Shown here: piece after piece, positions 13,598 to 59,069 of the stretch
Layout: every line of letters starts with the position of its first letter
How positions within the stretch are numbered: the first letter of the stretch is position 1
Assembly: GCA_028456385.1 (NCBI GenBank)
Contig: JALNQF010000170.1
Span: 30,821 to 94,820, forward strand
Source of the DNA: Ophiosphaerella korrae
Taxonomy: Eukaryota; Ascomycota; Dothideomycetes; Pleosporales; Phaeosphaeriaceae
Direction: 5' to 3'
Length of the DNA stretch: 64,000 bases
Notes under the pieces: model-generated
The model's database searches: none
The model's input: the letters and a program-made list of their open reading frames with translations, nothing else
What the model was told of the DNA's origin: nothing
Program-made: the position numbers and the translations under genes

Positions 13598-16500
13598 ATG
13601 CGGACGGCGTGCCTCAGGGCAGCCTCCTCAGCCAGCAGGCTAGCTCGCTCGACCTGCAGTGCTCAATTATCGCGCCCACAACTCGCAGGAAGCGCACCAC
13701 GAGTAGTCACTTACCAGAGCCATCAATTCCAGAAGCGAGCGTTTCAGCGAAATGCACCTTCCTCACAGCAGGCGACTGCAGCCGCCCAAGCAGTAGAAGA
13801 CGTGTTGGACACGCCACCTCAGCAGACTGAGACAGCAAAGCCAATCGAAGCCCTCGATACTTTTCCGCGACGACACATTGGACCTTCCGCCGAATCAGCA
13901 GCGGCAATGCTAAAGCTCCTAGACCCGCCTGTAAAGAGCTTAGATGAATTCGTCAAGCAAGTCATCCCGGCCGATATCCTCAGTTCGCGCCAACTCGAGA
14001 TTGGCAAGCTTGCGCAACAGCACAAGGGCAAATGGCAACAAGGCGGCGTTCCAGAGTCGGTCTTCCTCAAGAATGCGAAAAAGATCATGGACAGGAACAA
14101 GCCGGGCAAAAGTTTGATTGGACAGGGATACTATGGCACAAAAACACCAGAAGTCATCAAGCGCAATGTGCTTGAGAATCCGGCCTGGTATACCAGCTAC
14201 ACGCCTTACCAGCCAGAGATTAGCCAGGGGCGTTTGGAAAGCTTGCTCAACTTCCAGACCATGGTCACTGATTTGACAGGCCTCAGTATTGCAAATGCGT
14301 CCTTGCTGGACGAACCAACAGCAGCAGCAGAGGCCATGACTCTTAGCCTGGGCATGATGTCTGCGAGCAAACAAAAAAGGCCGAATAAGATTTTCTTGGT
14401 TTCCGAGAGATGCCACCCACAAACAATTGCTGTATTGTACTCCAGGGCCGAAGGATTCGGCATCAAGATCGAAGTGGCAGACGTGCTTAAGGACGGCAGC
14501 AAGAGAGTTGAGGAACTAGGCCAGGATCTAGTCGGTGTCTTGGCTCAGTATCCGGACACTGACGGTGGAGTCCACAACTTCAAGGGGCTGGCAGATAAGG
14601 TGCACAAGGCCGGCGCACTATTCAGTGTAGCGACAGATTTACTGGCCTTGACACTGCTTACTCCTCCAGGAGAGTTCGGTGCAGATATTGCCTTTGGAAA
14701 TGCACAGCGGTTCGGTGTGCCTCTGGGCTTTGGAGGACCACATGCCGCTTTCTTTGCATGCGACGAGAAATACAAGCGCAAGATCCCAGGCCGCTTGATC
14801 GGCCTCTCGAAAGATCGGCTGGGTAATCCAGCAGCGCGACTTGCGCTGCAGACTCGAGAACAGCATATTCGTCGTGAAAAGGCTACAAGCAACGTTTGTA
14901 CTGCCCAGGCGCTGCTGGCAAATATGAGCGCTATGTACGCTGTATACCATGGGCCGAACGGATTGACACAGATCGCAAAGCAGGTTGTGGCCAAGGCTCG
15001 ACTTGTACAGCAGGCACTTATTGAGAATGGCTTCAAGACTGGCCAGCGCGGCAGGCTGGACAATGCCCCAGTATTGTTCGATACCTTTGTCGTTGAAACT
15101 GGAGACAAAACAGATGCTATCATCGCCGATTTGGATCGCCGAGAAGTGCTGGTACGAAGGGTAGATGATCATCATATTGGTATCTCCTTAGACGAGACTA
15201 CTACCGGGCAAACAATCACCAACCTCCTTCAGCCCTTCAGGGAGATTGGCAAGGGCGATAGGACATCATTTACTGAGTCGGTTCAAATTGATATTCCTGA
15301 ACCATTCAAGCGAACAAGCGAATTTTTGACGCACCCCGTGTTCAACTCGCATCACTCAGAAACAGAGCTTCTGCGATACATCAACCATCTCTCATCCAAG
15401 GACTTATCTCTTATTCACTCAATGATTCCCCTTGGATCATGCACCATGAAGCTAAATGCTACCGCCGAGATGGCACCAGTGTCCTTTGAAACCGTGTCGA
15501 ACCTGCATCCTTTTATGCCACTAGAGCGAGCTGAAGGCTATATCGAGATGATCAAACAGCTCGAGGGCGATCTGGCCAACATCACTGGTTTCCATTCAGT
15601 CTCGCTACAGCCCAACTCGGGTGCTCAAGGAGAGTTCGCTGGACTACGCGTCATCCGCAAGTTCCAAGAACAACAGCCTAGCAAGAAGCGAGATATTTGC
15701 TTGATTCCTGTATCAGCCCACGGTACCAACCCAGCAAGCGCTGCGATGGCTGGGATGCGAGTCGTCCCAATCAAGTGCGACACTGCGACTGGTAACTTGG
15801 ATATCACCGATTTGAAGGCCAAGTGCGAGAAGCACAGTGAAGAGCTTGCGGCTATCATGATCACGTATCCCAGCACTTTCGGCGTTTTCGAGCCAAAGGT
15901 GAAGGAAGCATGTGATCTAATCCACCAGCACGGCGGCCAAGTATACATGGATGGCGCGAACATGAACGCACAAATCGGCCTTTGCTCGCCTGGCGAGATC
16001 GGCGCAGATGTATGCCATCTCAATCTCCACAAGACCTTCTGCATCCCTCATGGCGGCGGCGGTCCTGGTGTAGGCCCCATTGGCGTAAAGGAGCATCTCA
16101 CCCCTTTCCTCCCAGGCCACCTACGCAACGAAACCGGTGGCACAAAGGCCATTCACCCTGTCTCCGGCGCGCCATGGGGCTCCGCTAGCATCCTCCCGAT
16201 ATCATGGGCCTACATCAAAATGATGGGCTCCATCGGCCTCACACAAGCCACCAAAATCACCATCCTGAACGCAAACTACATCCTCTCGCGCCTCAAACCC
16301 CACTACCCCATTCTCTGCACCAACTCCCAAGGCCGCTGCGCCCATGAATTTATCCTCGACGTCCGTGGCTTCAAAGCCAGCGCCGGCATTGAAGCAATCG
16401 ACATCGCCAAACGCCTACAAGACTACGGCTTCCACGCACCCACCATGTCCTGGCCCGTCGCCAACACCCTCATGATTGAGCCCACAGAGTCCGAATCCAA

Positions 16501-16876
16501 GGCCGAACTTGACCGCTTCTGCAATACGCTGATCAGCATCCGACAAGAAATCCGCGAAGTAGAAGAGGGGAAACAACCAAGGGGCAACAACGTGCTTACC
16601 ATGGCGCCGCACAGCCAGCTCGATCTGATCACCGGCGAGTGGGATCGCGCATATACAAGAGAACAGGCCGCATACCCCGTATCATGGTTGCGAGAAAAGA
16701 AATTCTGGCCGGCAGTAGGAAGGCTAGACGATGGTATGTTCCCACACCAACTCATACACGTGCTCTACTAACATCTCCATCTAGCTTACGGCGATACGAA
16801 CCTTTTCTGCACATGCGCGCCCGTTGAGCCTGAGGACTCGGACATTACGGATGCTGCGGCGCCGACGCCGACGTAG
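13598..16876 (+). CDS. GCV2: Glycine dehydrogenase (decarboxylating), mitochondrial P-protein
   Basis: Pyridoxal-phosphate subunit of the glycine cleavage system: decarboxylates glycine and passes the aminomethyl group to lipoylated H-protein in the mitochondrial matrix. Exons 13598-16733 and 16785-16876 give 1075 aa. The N-terminus (MRTACLRAASSASRLARSTC) is Arg/Ser/Ala-rich without acids, a typical matrix-targeting peptide. DTFPRRHIGPS opens the mature protein. The N-terminal half holds YYGTKTP and YTPYQPEISQGRLE; the C-terminal half holds SMIPLGSCTMKLNA and the PLP site LNLHKTFCIPHGGGGPG (Lys near residue 812). The small last exon ends AYGDTNLFCTCAPVE, the conserved C-terminus, which confirms the GTATGT...TAG intron. 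Confidence 0.97.
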
Positions 16877-18276
16877 GCGCGGATAATGGAGGGAAGTGAG
16901 GGTGATGTCTGGGACTTGGAATTTGCATTCAACACCAGCGATGGAGTTTGGGCGCTGGGTAGCAGGTTTCAACACTGCTGGCATGATTTGGGAGTGCGTA
17001 TTTGGCGTTTTGTTTTTGAAGAGAGGGGAGGGGAAGGTGTGTGATGTGATGTAGGGGAAATCAATGCAATATTTTCAGATGTTGAGTCAGGGCTTGAAGG
17101 TGGTGTGTTCACTGCTTGACCCACTCTCAATTTTGTTCGCTATATTTGTCGCCTCTTTTGTCGCCTCTATGATATGGAGCGTTTTTACCTTTGATGAGAC
17201 GTACTTTTCGACGAAGAAGGAACCGATTCCTAGTCGAGAACCCTCGTCACCATCTCCTACTCCTACTCGACAGTGCCTACACTTATTCCCAATGCCCCAT
17301 GTAACAGCCGCAACACCCCAGAACCCTGTTTTCCACCCTAGCACCATGTAAGAAGACAAAATACACAATCATCCAACACTACAATCTAGCAGCACGCTAG
17401 AACCAGAAGCTCACCTCCCACCACAATCTCCTACCCTGTCCCCCACGACTAGCATACTTGTATCTAAACGCCAGGCTAGACTCCAGTACCCTTGCGCGAC
17501 TTCAGAGGTCAGTACGTCGTTATACAATAACTAAATAGTACCACCGCAATAAGACGAAAGCACACTCCAAGGTCGCTCGATGATAGGGCACAGTGTAGGA
17601 CGTTGCAGGTGCTTTACACGAGCATCGCGAGCACACTGACTTATGTAGAACATGATACAGTAGAGGTGCAGCGATGGCCATGCAACCTATTGCCCAACCG
17701 GCCCAAAGAAATGCAGGACGCTGTCGAAGACGTGGTGTGGTCAACACGTCACTTCCTTTCTGGCGTGTTTTCGTCGTCATTGCTTCGCTTTGTGCTTTGC
17801 GCCTTGGAGGCTACCTGGATAAGTGGCAAAGGGCATGTGTATTACTCGGGTTGTTGTTACAATTCGATAAGTAGTCGTGCATGGCGCATATCTTAGATCG
17901 GCATTTAGATCTTTGGCCAGCAGAACAGAGCTGCGAAAATGGCACAATGACGCACAATGACGCATAGGAAGGACCTCAGTCAATTGAGAGACTTGACTTG
18001 TATGTTCCAATGCTGAGACAAAGAATTTTAGATGCACTTGATCAGAGCACCAGTCTAGTGCTAGATTTGTTGCGCCTTTGGGTATGTGGCGCAGAATATA
18101 TATCACGACGCACGACAATAGTACCCTATAAAATTGACTATTAGAGGATAAGATATAATCGAGATGTAATGGGGTTTGTTACTAATATGTAAAAAAATTA
18201 GCCAGGCATGCTGTCAAAGGAATATCGACATCAGCCAAACAGGCAAAAAAAAATAAAAAATAAACTTGGCTGGATG
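16877..18276. other. Convergent intergenic region, left of the tRNA
   Basis: Lies beyond the 3' end of GCV2. Open frames of 66-115 aa occur on both strands but none shows a recognisable family or good exon structure. A 10-bp tandem repeat GCACAATGAC (17942-17961) is present. Poly-A runs near 18245-18260 read as T runs on the minus strand and fit RNA polymerase III termination for the tRNA. Confidence 0.5.
18245..18260 (-). terminator. Poly-T pol III terminator of the tRNA-Asp gene
   Basis: Read on the minus strand these bases give TTTTTT, A, then nine T, starting 17 nt beyond the tRNA 3' end. T runs of this length are efficient RNA polymerase III stops, which supports the tRNA locus being transcribed. 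Confidence 0.7.
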
Positions 18277-18296
18277 CTCTCCGACGGGGAATCGAA

Positions 18297-18347
18297 CTAA
18301 AGCTGTTATTAGGACTTCATGATGCAAGAGGTGATGGAAATGCTTAC
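18297..18347 (-). other. 51-nt spliceosomal-type insertion in the tRNA T arm
   Basis: On the tRNA strand the insertion begins GTAAGC and ends with TAG, with CTAATAAC 11-18 nt before the end, matching fungal pre-mRNA introns in donor, branch site and length. It sits exactly between the T stem (CGGGG) and the T loop (TTCGATT). Spliceosomal removal is inferred, not shown; tRNA-endonuclease removal or gene inactivation are the alternatives. Confidence 0.65.
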
Positions 18348-18362
18348 CCCCGGTCTCCCGCG

Positions 18363-18380
18363 CTTGTTAGGAAAACTCCT
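18363..18380 (-). other. 18-nt canonical tRNA intron after position 37
   Basis: AGGAGTTTTCCTAACAAG on the tRNA strand lies between A37 and C38, the standard eukaryotic tRNA intron site. Its AACAAG end can pair with CTTGT of the anticodon loop, as usual for introns cut by the tRNA splicing endonuclease. Confidence 0.85.
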
Positions 18381-18417
18381 TGACAAGCGGAAATCATGAC
18401 CACTAGACCATCGAAGA

Positions 18418-30841: not shown

Positions 30842-32540
30842 TCAATAAGTCTGTGATAGTTGGGACGTGGTGTCGTCATTGTCCTGGTTGTGGGACGAGT
30901 GCTCGATTACTTCCCCTAGCACGGAGCCAACGCCAGGATATTGGTCGCTGTGGCCTGAGTCGTTCCGCAGGTAGGAGTTGGGGAACGTGCTGAGATGGTG
31001 TGGTGCGCTTAGCTGTGGCATCGCATAGCTTTGGGGAGTCACCAACGGTGAGCCAGAATATGATGGGAAGTGTGCGGTTTGGGGAGTGTTGGCGCTGCGG
31101 CTCGGGGTGTAGTGTGTGCTGAGCTCAATTCTCCTGGGCACGCCGTTGGAGAAGGAACGCATTCTGTGTGAGCTTGATGCTTGGAAGCCAGGGACTGGAG
31201 CGTAGGAATAACCAATGCCATACGGCATCATTGAACTCGAGTACGATCGTGGAGTATCGGGGTGGCTAGTTGAGTCTGGTGACCCCCCCATGCTTTCGTG
31301 ACTGTAGCTCATGCTCGACCTTAGGGGTGACTGCAAAGACTCTGCTCGGCTTCTTCCGATGCGATCGGCATGAAGGGTTAGTCTTGGGATGCTGTGTTGT
31401 GCTGCGTACGCTGGTGGAGTGCTGACTGGCATTGAGAATGGGTTCGACGTTCTTGGGCTGGTGTCAAGTGGGGCTGAATTGAAACCAAACGGCGAGTCGC
31501 CATGTGCTGACACAGGTGAGAGCGTATCGGTCGCCGACTGCGGTGGCGTGAATGTGAAACCACCGAAAGCCGGGCTGATGCCAGTGGGTGAAATGTGCGA
31601 GTCGAGGGGTCCTCTTCGTAGAGTATCGATGCTGAGAGGCCGCATCATGTTACCTTCAGGAAAGCTTGGAGCATAGGATCCTGGAGATGCAAGAGGCGTT
31701 CCAAGGCCGTGGTGGGCGCCAAATGGGGAGTGCAGTGCTGAAGCCATATCGAAGTCATCTGGTAGAGCTCGGGATCTCATCATGCGCTCACGATCGTCGC
31801 TAGTTAAACGCTTGAGCTTTGCTCGTCTGTATCTATTAGCATTGTCATCGGCCAACCGTGGATGCTGCCTACCTGTTCTGGAACCAGACTTGTACTTGTC
31901 GCGGGCTAAGACCTGGGATCTCGCGAGCTAGACGTTCTCGATGAGCAGCATCAGGATGCGCCTGGCGGGCAAACTCGCTCATGAGGAATCGAGTTTGGTT
32001 ATGAGTCAATCTAAATCGCTTCATCTTGCGCTTAGCTGCGCGAATCTCTGCAGCAGATAGCGGAGGCCTGTTCTCATCCTTGTTTTCTTCCTCACAAAGG
32101 TCGTCTTTGTCATCTAGAATAATATCATCTTCTTGGTCGTCTAGCTTCTCAGCTGTGAGGCCATCGTGTGTTGATGGTGGCGTTAGTCTGGAGATGGGAC
32201 TGGTAGGTGCTGATCCTCCAAAGGTGACGTTTGGTACATCGTGCTCTTCGATGTCACCTAATCCTGTTGGTGAGGCGGCGCCACTACTCAAATGGCTCTT
32301 GTTGTCGAGAAGGTAAGGAAAGCTCTTGTGGGATCGCATCATGGGGCGTTTGAGGTCGAAGCTATGCCCAGCTACTTCAGCCTGGAGCATCGCCATGTCG
32401 CTATCCGAATGTGGAGGAGTGTGCTCCAGGGTCCGAAGGTCAGAAGTTTGCCACTCGGAATCTACTGGAGCCGTACTGTACACAGACAGACGCGGCGAAC
32501 TGGGCGGAGACAAAGGAATGATGAAGTTTCCGTCCACCAT
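30842..32540 (-). CDS. Homeodomain transcription factor
   Basis: Nuclear DNA-binding regulator. Exons 32540-31873 and 31826-30842 give 550 aa. A homeodomain lies at about residues 170-230: FRLTHNQTRFLMSEFARQAH opens helix 1 and the recognition helix reads PRQVQVWFQNRRAKLKR. The 46-nt intron (31827-31872) splits the second Arg of WFQNRR; removing it restores the motif exactly. An acidic stretch (DDQEDDIILDDKDD) precedes the domain. The C-terminal half is Ser/Pro-rich and probably disordered, with ALPDDFDMASAL just after the domain. A likely 5' untranslated intron lies at 32603-32652. Fungal proteins of this type (such as Phx1-like factors) control development and stress survival, but I cannot name the orthologue from sequence alone. 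Confidence 0.9.
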
Positions 32541-39578: not shown

Positions 39579-42500
39579 ATGGATCTCCCCGAAGAACTCG
39601 AAAAGCTTAGGCTAAGCCATGGTGCGCTGGATGCCGGCTGGATAGACTCCACCAAGGGCGAACAACGTCCACCAAAACGACAACGCAAAACAAAACAGCT
39701 TGTCAAGAAGGAGCTAGAGGCCGACTTTCTGGCACCATCGCGGTCGTTCAGCACCCAGTGGCTGAACCAGTTGCAGCAGCGATGGGACACTCCTACCAAT
39801 TATCACAGTTTGTTTCAAATCGCCCCAACCCAGACCCGCACTATTATTCGGTTCACTCGTGAAGGACTCGAGGGTCGCGTTACAGGGTATAAAGAAGTGA
39901 CCGTACCGGCAAACTCAGCAACAGCGAAAAACTCTACTTCTTTACTTCGAAAGCCTGCCAACAGAGCTGAATTCGTCCGTGGTGCTGCTGGTTTCTTCCC
40001 CTTTGCACCTGGAGGCCTCGATGGTGTTGAAGCTATTGCCGCAGTCGAAGATGAGGCGATCTTGAATGAAGAGAAAGACAGCTCGAAAAAAAACAAGGGC
40101 CTTGACCGAGTCATCAATTTCACGGCTGAGGGCGGTCTGCTCGAACTGCCACCAGGGTTCTCGCGTGGATTGGATTTCAAGAAGAAGCAGAACATGAATC
40201 CTAAAATAGCAAAAGAGGTTGAAGAAACTTTAGGAGAAGCGTCAACCGTTACCGCAAATGAGGCTGATGAGGATGATGCTGTTAATGCTAGTCCCAAAGA
40301 GCACACGTCTTCCGGAGAGGAAAGCCAAACACCAAATGAAGAAGAAATCGATGCCCTGTTACCTATTGAGTTCCCTGCTTTGGCCCCTCATGGCCCTCTT
40401 ACAATAGCTGCTTCAAGGAAGGGCGGACGAGAGTGGGCTCATATGGTCGACACCAACTGCGATATAACAAATTTCCGAGAACTCGTTCCAGATATGGCGC
40501 GCGAATACCCATTTGAACTTGACACGTTCCAAAAGGAGGCTGTCTATCACCTTGAAAACGGCGATTCTGTGTTCGTGGCTGCCCATACTTCTGCTGGAAA
40601 GACCGTAGTGGCAGAATACGCAATCGCTCTCGCTGCTAAACATATGACCAAAGCTATCTACACATCTCCAATCAAGGCTCTAAGTAACCAAAAGTTCCGC
40701 GACTTTCGGCTTACCTTTGATGATGTTGGGATTCTCACGGGTGATGTGCAGATCCGACCAGAAGCGAGTTGCCTTATCATGACTACCGAAATTTTGCGAA
40801 GTATGCTGTATCGTGGTGCAGACCTAATTAGGGATGTTGAGTTCGTCATCTTTGACGAAGTTCACTACGTCAATGACCTCGAGCGAGGTGTAGTGTGGGA
40901 GGAAGTTATTATCATGCTACCACAGCATGTCACCCTGATCTTGCTTTCAGCTACTGTACCCAATACCTATGAGTTCGCTTCATGGGTCGGTCGGACGAAA
41001 AAGAAAGACATCTATGTCATCTCCACACCCAAGCGTCCTATCCCGCTGGAGCACTACCTATGGGCTGGGGAAGACATTTACAAGATCGTTACGGCTGATA
41101 AGAAGTTCGTAGAAAACGGCTGGAAAGAGGCTAACGATATTATGTCAGGTAAAGACAAGGTTAAGGCACCAACAATAAAAGACGCTCCGGCCGGAAGAGG
41201 TCGTGGCGGCCGTGGCGGTCCTACGAAAGGAGGACAGAATCAACGAGGAAGAGGGCAGCAAAATGCAGGCCGGGGAGGCACCCCACGCGGGGGAGGTGCA
41301 CCAGCGACTCGAGGTCGTGGCAACATTGCGCGAACAGGTCGTGGAGGTGGTCGAACGACAGCTGCTCAGGATCGGAACATATGGGTACATCTCATACAGC
41401 ACCTACGAAGCAAAGATCTTCTGCCGGCATGTATCTTCGTGTTCTCGAAGAAGCGTTGCGAGGAAAATGCCGAGGCACTCTCAAATCTTGACTATTGTAC
41501 TGCTGCAGAGAAGAGTGCAATCCACATGACAATCGAAAAGTCACTAGTGAGGCTCAGTCGCGAAGATCGAGAGCTACCTCAGATCAAGCGATTGAGAGAA
41601 CTGCTCAGCCGGGGCATTGCTGTTCACCATGGCGGTATGCTTCCCATTGTCAAAGAAGTTGTAGAGATCTTGTTTGCGAAGACGCTCGTCAAGGTGCTTT
41701 TCGCAACCGAAACCTTTGCTATGGGTCTAAATCTGCCCACTAGAACTGTTGTGTTCTCTGGCTTCCGCAAACACGATGGTCGTGAATTTCGTGATTTGCT
41801 TCCTGGCGAATATACCCAGATGGCTGGTCGTGCTGGACGAAGAGGCCTTGACACAGTCGGCACCGTAATAATTTGCGTCCCTGGAGCGGATGAGGCGCCT
41901 CCAGCGACTAGATTGAGACAGATGATGCTTGGTGAGCCTACGAAACTACGGTCTCAATTCCGTCTCACATACAACATGATGTTAAATCTCCTGCGTGTCG
42001 AGGCCCTGAGGATTGAAGAGATGATTAAGCGCAGCTTCAGCGAGAATGCTACTCAAGCCTTGCTCCCAGAGCATGAGAAAAATGTTAAGATCTCAGAGGC
42101 AGATCTTGAAACGATTAAACGCGAGCCGTGCAAGATCTGCGACATTGATCTGGAGGCGTGTCATCAATCTTGTGAGGATTATAAGCGGCTGACAAACGAA
42201 ATGCACTTGAGCCTACTTGCTGACCCAGTTGGCCGACGTGTACTTAGCAGGAAAAGGCTTATTGTGTACAAGAAGGTATGTAAGAAGGCTCGACATGGCG
42301 GTATGTGACTGATTCATTAGGGCAACAAACGCACTGCAGGTATGCTTATGCAGGATGGTACCAGTCGAGGCCTTGAGCCTACCATCAAGGTCCTGGAAAT
42401 TGCTCAAAATCAAGACCGAAAGGCGGATGATCTTTTTCCATATCTGACTCCATTTGCGAGGTTCTTCCGGAGCCTTCCCAAGACACCCAAGGATCTCATC

Positions 42501-57600: not shown

Positions 57601-59069
57601 TCCTTTGGTCGTGAACTTCAAGAAGCACGTGATTGGTGCAATACATTTAGGACATCGGGTGAAGTTGGAGATCTCAATCAAGCTTGGGATCTCTATTATC
57701 AGGTCTTTAGGAAGATCGCGAGACAGTTACCGTCTTTGATGTCGCTTGAGCTGCAGTATGTCTCGCCGAAACTTAAGGATGCACACGATCTTGAACTCGC
57801 GGTACCAGGAACATATCGGGTTGGCAAGCCCGTTATTGGTATTGTCTCATTTGACCCAGTGGCAACTGTCATTCAGTCCAAACAGAGGCCGAGGAAGCTT
57901 GAGATGCGTGGTAGCGACGGCAAAGCGCACACGCATATTCTCAAAGGCCACGAAGATATCCGCCAGGACGAGCGCGTCATGCAACTCTTCGGTCTGTGTA
58001 ATACCCTTCTCGCCAACGACGTGGAGTCCCGCAAGCGCCACCTTAATATCCAGCGCTATGCTGCTGTTCCACTCAGCACGCAGTCTGGTCTGCTTGGATT
58101 CGTCCCCAACAGTGATACCCTGCATGTGCTCATTCGAGAGTATCGTGATAGTCGCAAGATTCTTCTCAATATTGAGCATCGTATCATGTTGCAAATGGCG
58201 CCCGACTACGACTGCCTGACGCTCATGCAGAAAGTTGAGGTCTTTGGGTACGCGCTTGATAACACGACTGGCCAAGATCTGTACCGCGTCTTGTGGCTGA
58301 AGTCTAAGTCTTCTGAAGCATGGCTCGATCGTCGTACTAACTATACACGTTCACTTGCTGTCATGTCCATGGTCGGATATATTCTAGGCTTAGGCGATCG
58401 CCATCCGTCGAATCTCATGCTCGATCGTGTGACTGGAAAGATCGTGCATATCGATTTCGGTGATTGCTTCGAAGTCGCGATGCACCGCGAGAAATATCCT
58501 GAGCGCGTGCCGTTCCGTCTGACGCGCATGTTGACGTATGCTATGGAAGTTAGTAACATTGAGGGTAGCTATCGAACAACATGTGAGCATGTCATGAGGG
58601 TTCTACGGAGCAATAAGGAGAGTGTTATGGCGGTACTGGAAGCCGTAAGTCCTATGTTGCATACCACGCCAAGATGAATTTATCGCTAATCCAATAATAG
58701 TTTATACACGATCCTCTCCTTACCTGGCGCCTCAACCACACTGCATCTCCCCTCGAACCTAACTTCCCCTCTGAACGCCGCCAATCCATAATGGGCGACA
58801 ATTCCGCCGCTGACCCTCTCTCATCTCTCCAACCTCGGCGTCACCGCTCTAGCACCGTGCCACATACCAACGAAGTCGAAGCCAAGGAAGTTCAGAATGC
58901 TCGCGCCCTCCAAGTCCTCAGCAGAGTCAAGGAGAAATTAACAGGCAAAGACGGCGTTTCGAAAACAGACGAAGCCCCCGTGGACGTCCAAGTCGGTCGT
59001 CTCATCAGCGAAGCAACCAGTCTCGAAAACCTCTGCCAACACTACATCGGCTGGTGCAGTTTCTGGTAA
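51689..59069 (+). CDS. TOR: Serine/threonine protein kinase TOR
   Basis: Target of rapamycin, the kinase core of TORC1/TORC2 that ties growth to nutrients. Exons 51689-51744, 51796-51860, 51920-58644 and 58701-59069 give 2404 aa. The first two small exons give MSQQALSSLDCIVVDLRSKS and EAAHRELAPT. HEAT repeats fill the N-terminal half, then the FAT domain. The FRB domain (about 1877-1972) has HEQWHEGLEEASRLYFGDRN with the Ser whose change gives rapamycin resistance in yeast, so a sensitive form is predicted. The PI3K-like kinase domain has GHEDIRQDERVMQLF (about 2050), GLGDRHPSNLMLD (about 2198) and HIDFGDCFE. The FATC end is LCQHYIGWCSFW. All catalytic motifs are present. Confidence 0.98.

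Follow-up and report, generated by a model that had tools for sequence, protein, structure and literature searches.

Can a nuclear tRNA gene carry an intron of the pre-mRNA type, and would its precursor then pass through two splicing pathways? In textbooks, pre-mRNA introns are the spliceosome's task and those of fungal nuclear tRNAs—expected only after position 37—fall to an endonuclease and a ligase, yet one precursor here seems to need both. The locus lies in the window, a 64,000-nucleotide stretch of Ophiosphaerella korrae DNA that forms part of contig C80, and we followed it up by searching this one fungal genome (63 Mb, 974 contigs).

Anatomy of the window gene and its relatives

The gene is situated between gcvP and the next large ORF of the minus strand; GcvP (window 13598-16771, plus strand) is 91% identical to a protein of Phaeosphaeriaceae sp. 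PMI808, from a family in the Pleosporales, and its other closest named matches belong to the Pleosporales too. The parts of the tRNA gene are:

18277..18417, minus strand: nuclear tRNA-Asp(GUC) gene, 141 bp, with a 72-nt product minus both introns (Rfam CM, ARAGORN, second copy with 72/72 exon bases)
18381..18417, minus strand: exon 1, 37 nt, positions 1-37
18410-18400, minus strand: A box, inside exon 1 (taken as tRNA positions 8-19, from the relevant passage of PMC3978253)
18363..18380, minus strand: canonical intron after position 37, 18 nt
18348..18362, minus strand: exon 2, 15 nt, positions 38-53
18297..18347, minus strand: spliceosomal-type intron between positions 53 and 54, 51 nt, GTAAGC ... 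CTAATAAC ... TAG
18305..18312, minus strand: putative branch-site motif CTAATAAC (CTAA[CT] is similarly spaced in 10/10 tRNA introns)
18277..18296, minus strand: exon 3, 20 nt, positions 54-73
18245..18260, minus strand: T6 run (18260-18255) and T9 run (18253-18245), likely pol III terminator

A preliminary description of this DNA had proposed that a 72-nt tRNA-Asp(GUC) with G73 and G10-U25 remains once two pieces are taken out, one of 18 nt following position 37 and one of 51 nt separating positions 53 and 54. We reproduced this on the minus strand; U33 is present as well. The cloverleaf does not deserve the word ‘perfect’ used there, since the D stem has a U13-U22 mismatch and G-U pairs also occur. 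The insert does begin with GTAAGC and end with TAG, whereas its internal motif CTAATAAC lies 9-16 nt before the end (18312-18305), not 11-18 nt. As had also been recognized, the intron's last G (18297) stands before TTCGATTC, so that the B-box core GTTCGATTC is whole in the DNA, and poly-T follows the gene in the form of the T6 and T9 runs. With a cloverleaf bearing identity elements, A and B boxes and a T-run terminator, the locus has the features expected of a nuclear tRNA gene.

The Rfam tRNA model spans the gene end to end with two large insertions, scoring 23.4 bits (below the cut-off of 29). ARAGORN missed the unspliced gene and called tRNA-Asp(gtc) after removal of the 51 nt; Asp was still called when the excision was placed 4 nt upstream, and not at +4, -8 or +8. 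A structure-only scan of excisions of 25-109 nt, applying no splice rule, found seven that make the gene a tRNA, with the top score tied by two: the exact GT-AG excision and its 1-nt slide. The numbers were the same for each of two Asp copies.

The second of these copies, C101:385530-385676, was the one other locus returned by a DNA search with the window gene. It aligns to the window gene and contains the same two introns. No exon base differs between the copies (0/72), as against 3/18 in the canonical intron and 7/51 in the T-arm intron, so that differences are concentrated in intron sequence (0/72 versus 10/69; Fisher p=5.5e-4). Within the T-arm intron, the 16 sites of GTAAGC, CTAATAAC and AG are unchanged, compared with 7/35 differences at non-motif sites, a contrast that is not significant alone (p=0.08). 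When 22 kb of the window was compared by BLASTN with the 9.9 kb surrounding the C101 copy, a single match of 147 bp and no homology outside the gene came up, which suggests an old, dispersed pair rather than two alleles or a recent segmental duplication.

The exons of a third nuclear Asp gene (C778:15791-15872) differ in sequence, and its one intron is a canonical one of 10 nt, which means that the window locus is not necessarily required for Asp decoding. An intact tRNA-Asp set elsewhere, with this locus silent or decayed in relatives, had been named in advance as an outcome that would count against a spliceosomal-type intron. The insert-free C778 gene goes part of the way in that direction.

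Inserts of the same kind in other tRNA genes

We ran a genome-wide Rfam tRNA search, in which 63 of 1,896 candidates were scored and mitochondrial tRNAs and tRNA-like repeats took up much of the output. To this were added pattern searches for B box plus T run (four), Trp (one) and Lys-TTT (two). Matches relative to reversed-pattern controls numbered 61/5, 78/60, 46/32 and 70/42 for the B-box patterns, 36/42 for Trp, and 6/10 and 15/78 for Lys-TTT, so that most rows outside the 61/5 pattern may be chance. Only rows resembling tRNA 3' ends were retrieved: 34 stretches from the 78-row set, and 30 loci plus 6 stretches from the 61-row set. The 46- and 70-row sets contributed one new locus, on C168. 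Unretrieved rows of any of the sets could hold genes.

These searches uncovered eight more tRNA genes with 48-59-nt inserts of the form GT...CTAA[CT]...YAG at other non-canonical sites (positions counted by hand from the sequences):

C312: Lys-UUU, insert at 14/15
C168: Lys-CUU (L140), insert at 11/12
C52: Gln-CUG, insert at 11/12
C534: Thr-UGU (L082), insert at 23/24
C18: Cys (L049), insert at 24/25
C142: Trp, insert at 25/26
C973: Pro-UGG, insert at 34/35, within the anticodon
C126: Leu-CAA, insert in the variable arm

Including the two Asp copies, ten genes are interrupted, at eight different positions. The inserts open with GTAAGT (six), GTAAGC (two), GTACGT (one) or, in Cys, GTTAGT, which is one base off GTRNGY. 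All ten contain CTAA[CT], the second A of which lies 9-13 nt before the end, finish in YAG and measure 48-59 nt; by 5' site, branch site, 3' YAG, and fungal spacing and length, each would qualify as a U2-type intron. Among 44 canonical 37/38 introns processed with the same script, one starts with GT, two end with AG and none does both. The motif GT[AT][AC]G[TC] ... CTAA[CT] (second A 9-13 nt from the end) ... AG, which was defined after the inserts had been seen, occurs in 2/767,280 window stretches (48, 50, 51, 53, 54 or 59 nt, both strands) versus 10/10 tRNA inserts.

Exact excision restores the cloverleaf in the ten genes (Pro being fitted by hand, with two flaws), and eight of them carry a short 37/38 intron in addition, the two Lys genes being the exceptions. 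A T run of at least 5 and an intact B box accompany all ten, partly by construction, as the patterns that found most of the genes required both. Structural flaws in two of the copies, namely a weak D loop (C18) and a 6-67 mismatch in Pro and an A31-C39 mismatch in Trp, suggest that the ten may include poor genes. In nine genes submitted to ARAGORN, a tRNA was called in 9 at the GT-AG excision, 8 at -4, 7 at +4, 2 at -8 and 5 at +8, which makes shifted excisions a poor control; after GT-AG excision the isotype was right in 5/9 (Asp twice, Lys, Cys and Trp).

Eight of the ten genes came from a fitting script whose output comprises 54 nuclear rows; Pro (no fit) and Lys-CUU (L140, not in the input) were added by hand. 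These rows fall short of a complete and faultless gene count, as identical genes were collapsed and some were missed (e.g., L034 and L037). Left out before counting were L079 and L085 (GT-AG fit, implausible arms) and the mitochondrial rows of L061, and the mitochondrial loci L001-L003, L005, L006 and L009-L013 were removed before the scan. Three loci—L079 (C274:29222-29452), L085 (C1:74069-74208) and L116 (C974)—consist of tRNA-like halves around an unexplained middle of 70-150 nt, and no tRNA could be made out in them with either intron type. Five others (L027, L028, L040, L043 and L044) are repeated tRNA-like elements, some with similar flanks, and are probably tRNA-derived short interspersed repeats.

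Do the inserts resemble the pre-mRNA introns of this genome? The window ORFs hold 13 putative introns of 45-57 nt with signals like those of the tRNA inserts, by which motif they were selected. Examples, each supported by the motif and an open frame, are:

42276-42320, plus strand: putative pre-mRNA intron
58645-58700, plus strand: putative pre-mRNA intron
31827-31872, minus strand: putative pre-mRNA intron

Their removal joins open frames. An in-frame stop lies inside 10/13; of the three without one, one keeps the frame unremoved. Motif matches in the window showed no excess over a reversed-sequence control (81 vs 99). The likeness to neighboring pre-mRNA introns asserted in the preliminary description was borne out in length and motif, for introns picked by that motif.

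The genome's U6 gene offers a further comparison. Its sole above-cut-off match, on C185 (L119 1501-1650, C185:41983 on; 69.4 bits), is weak after GGATGACACGC, where a GTTCGT...GCTAAC...CAG stretch is found, followed by ATCAAAGAGAAGC and T9. This U6 gene thus seems to hold a spliceosomal intron just before the T9 run.

Several interrupted genes have intron-free relatives. The intron-free Gln-CTG gene L130 (around C1:787590-787667) equals the spliced C52 gene over its first 50 nt, with the junction at 11, and the intron-free Cys gene L037 equals spliced L049 over the first 36 nt, with the junction at 23. Thr L025 and Lys L026 are insert-free close relatives of L082 and L140, respectively, with a less exact empty site. 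That near-identical paralogues differ in having or lacking an insert suggests that the inserts were gained or lost recently.

Searches with the window gene and seven other genes returned the genes themselves, paralogues and one partial Thr copy; as very common words were skipped, absence of matches is no proof of rarity. The introns of Lys-CTT L140 and U6 were outside the query set of this search for introner-type repeats. No target repeats were evident by eye at the inserts. The partial copy, L131 (C208:29581-29635, minus strand), is a Thr-UGU gene cut off after exon 1 and the first part of the intron, beyond which lies unrelated sequence.

To what extent might the cell rely on interrupted genes? 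The two Lys-TTT patterns (6 and 15 matches) and the Trp-CCA pattern (36 matches) would be blind to genes with a broken B box or other loop letters, or outside the assembly. The Lys-TTT patterns yielded one nuclear Lys-UUU gene, the intron-bearing one on C312. Four other matches were fetched and, on inspection by eye, did not resemble tRNA genes; for the rest, judgment was based on the matched letters only, and a match on C92 was taken as mitochondrial given the dense tRNA set there. Lys-UUU is the sole tRNA known to read AAA. For Trp, three Trp-like loci were detected, the only well-formed one being the intron-bearing gene on C142, and one further match that was fetched was unlike a tRNA gene. 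The remaining two, L101 (about C223:404190-404260, minus strand) and L114 (about C778:212280-212360, plus strand), have anticodon and T arms that look intact, with T or A runs in the first dozen bases and letters before about position 12 that are unfit for a tRNA.

No Phe, His, Gly-GCC, Leu-AAG or Glu-CTC gene was recognized among the Rfam and intact-B-box pattern matches. Possible reasons are an interruption within the B box, the lack of a nearby T run, a place among the unretrieved rows or absence from the assembly.

Transcription, function and the splicing agent

Three other accounts of the inserts were weighed. One is that pol II reads these genes within longer non-coding RNAs, which are spliced as such, with tRNA output being optional. 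Splicing normally occurs on pol II transcripts, and the A box is split by the insert in three of the ten genes (Gln and both Lys), which should weaken pol III use unless intron letters substitute. At 11/12 or 14/15 inserts, GTAAGT may do just that, by supplying A14 and/or a purine at 15 (n=3). The T runs and intact B boxes at 10/10 genes, albeit in part a product of the search, speak against the pol II account. The absence of TTTT from the ten tRNA inserts is no argument for pol III, because the putative pre-mRNA introns likewise lack it (0/13). U6 is itself a pol III product. It is spliced in some fungi, according to passages of PMC5832005, and overall we regard the pol II account as unlikely.

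Somewhat less likely still is that spliceosomal-type introns or intron-like elements landed in tRNA genes that are now silent, while other genes do the decoding. Intron-free genes are known here for Asp, Cys, Gln-CTG, Thr-TGT and Lys-CTT, and the partial Thr copy retains part of an intron. Against such decay, the Asp exons are unchanged while their introns drift, most of the ten cloverleaves are otherwise intact with a T run of at least 5 after each, and pattern searches turned up neither a Lys-TTT gene free of an intron nor a second well-formed Trp gene.

Finally, the inserts might be non-canonical tRNA introns cut by the tRNA splicing endonuclease at a bulge-helix-bulge. Fungi possess this enzyme, and 37/38 introns are found in 8/10 of the same genes. 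Such cutting has been proposed for Cyanidioschyzon merolae, which uses the same 53/54 position (PMC9602550). Moreover, some ectopic introns of the Guillardia theta nucleomorph are described in a section of PMC3978253 as having no defined bulge-helix-bulge, so that its absence does not exclude the enzyme. In a simplified 4-bp central-helix test requiring at least 3 pairs, 0/10 inserts passed, compared with 17/43 canonical introns and 16% of random draws; when slides of up to 2 nt were permitted, the figures were 7/10, 34/43 and 55%, so the test does not decide between the accounts. The minimum-energy fold of the Asp precursor lacks a T arm, and no bulge-helix-bulge was seen at the junction by eye. 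Given that the yeast endonuclease cleaves strictly at 37/38, as stated in part of a review (PMC4033280), and that in all ten inserts the 5' splice site, branch site and 3' end are of the mRNA type, features for which that enzyme has no known need, we consider this explanation the least credible of the three.

The spliceosomal-type reading put forward in the preliminary description is therefore the one we retain, strengthened by the second Asp copy, the eight further genes, the intron-free paralogues and the intron-like insert in U6. Judging from these sequence comparisons, the window gene is very probably a working tRNA-Asp gene whose T arm holds a genuine spliceosomal (GT-AG, U2-type) intron, in addition to a normal tRNA intron, and one of at least ten such genes. 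With less confidence, we consider it likely that spliceosomal introns entered tRNA genes repeatedly in this lineage, and that several tRNAs—including the apparent sole Lys-UUU and Trp—need the spliceosome, many of them the endonuclease as well.

Proposed processing route and relation to known systems

In the route we envisage, pol III would transcribe the whole gene, directed by the A and B boxes and ending in the T run. The spliceosome, suggested by the match in splice sites, branch site and length, would excise the 51-nt intron via a lariat and join G53 to U54, restoring the T arm. The 18-nt intron after position 37 would be removed by tRNA endonuclease and ligase, the established pathway for that site, with end trimming, CCA addition and charging to follow. 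The yeast tRNA endonuclease is located outside the nucleus, so the spliceosome would probably act first.

If this is true, translation depends directly on the mRNA splicing machinery through its tRNA supply. The genes also bear on how a presumed pol III transcript, with a mature 5' part that can be as short as 11 nt, comes to be accepted by the spliceosome, and, by way of presence and absence among near-identical tRNA paralogues, on intron gain and loss. tRNA annotation is affected, too, as standard finders miss or misread such genes. Our literature search, conducted mostly without subscription papers and bioRxiv, found, among the records listed, no earlier account of tRNA genes with spliceosomal introns.

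A close parallel is fungal U6 snRNA, in which spliceosomal introns were reportedly described by Tani and Ohshima in 1989 and by Canzler et al. in 2016. There, too, a gene for a small structured pol III RNA carries GT-AG introns of the pre-mRNA type; here, by contrast, the hosts are tRNAs, many isoacceptors and sites are involved, and 8/10 genes need a second, enzymatic splicing reaction. Nuclear rDNA of fungi can carry spliceosomal introns as well, which is again a case of mRNA-type introns in a non-coding RNA gene, but one that concerns rRNA and pol I. Fungal U3 snoRNA is a further structured non-coding RNA with spliceosomal introns (Canzler et al. 2017, PMC5832005); passages of that paper single out U3 and U6 among small structured RNAs as the only ones in which an intron is known to be frequent, and do not name tRNA as a host.

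With respect to tRNA genes, the nuclear genome of C. merolae provides introns in the D and T arms besides 37/38. Its tRNA-Ile(UAU) gene is interrupted at 12/13, 37/38 and 53/54 by introns of whose processing, in the relevant part of PMC9602550, little more is said to be known. These ectopic introns are ascribed to bulge-helix-bulge motifs and the tRNA endonuclease in sections of a review (PMC3978253), which also note that this alga has few spliceosomal introns. The Guillardia theta nucleomorph, compared here by its description in the same sections, is likewise a eukaryotic case of tRNA genes with non-canonical introns, many of which have no defined bulge-helix-bulge (PMC3978253). Eukaryotic tRNA genes are held to be limited to one intron, as put in a passage of the tRNAscan-SE 2.0 paper (PMC8450103). 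Archaeal tRNA introns, as portrayed there, resemble the present ones in their scattered positions and in occurring several per gene, and differ in relying on a bulge-helix-bulge and a protein endonuclease, with no spliceosome (PMC8450103).
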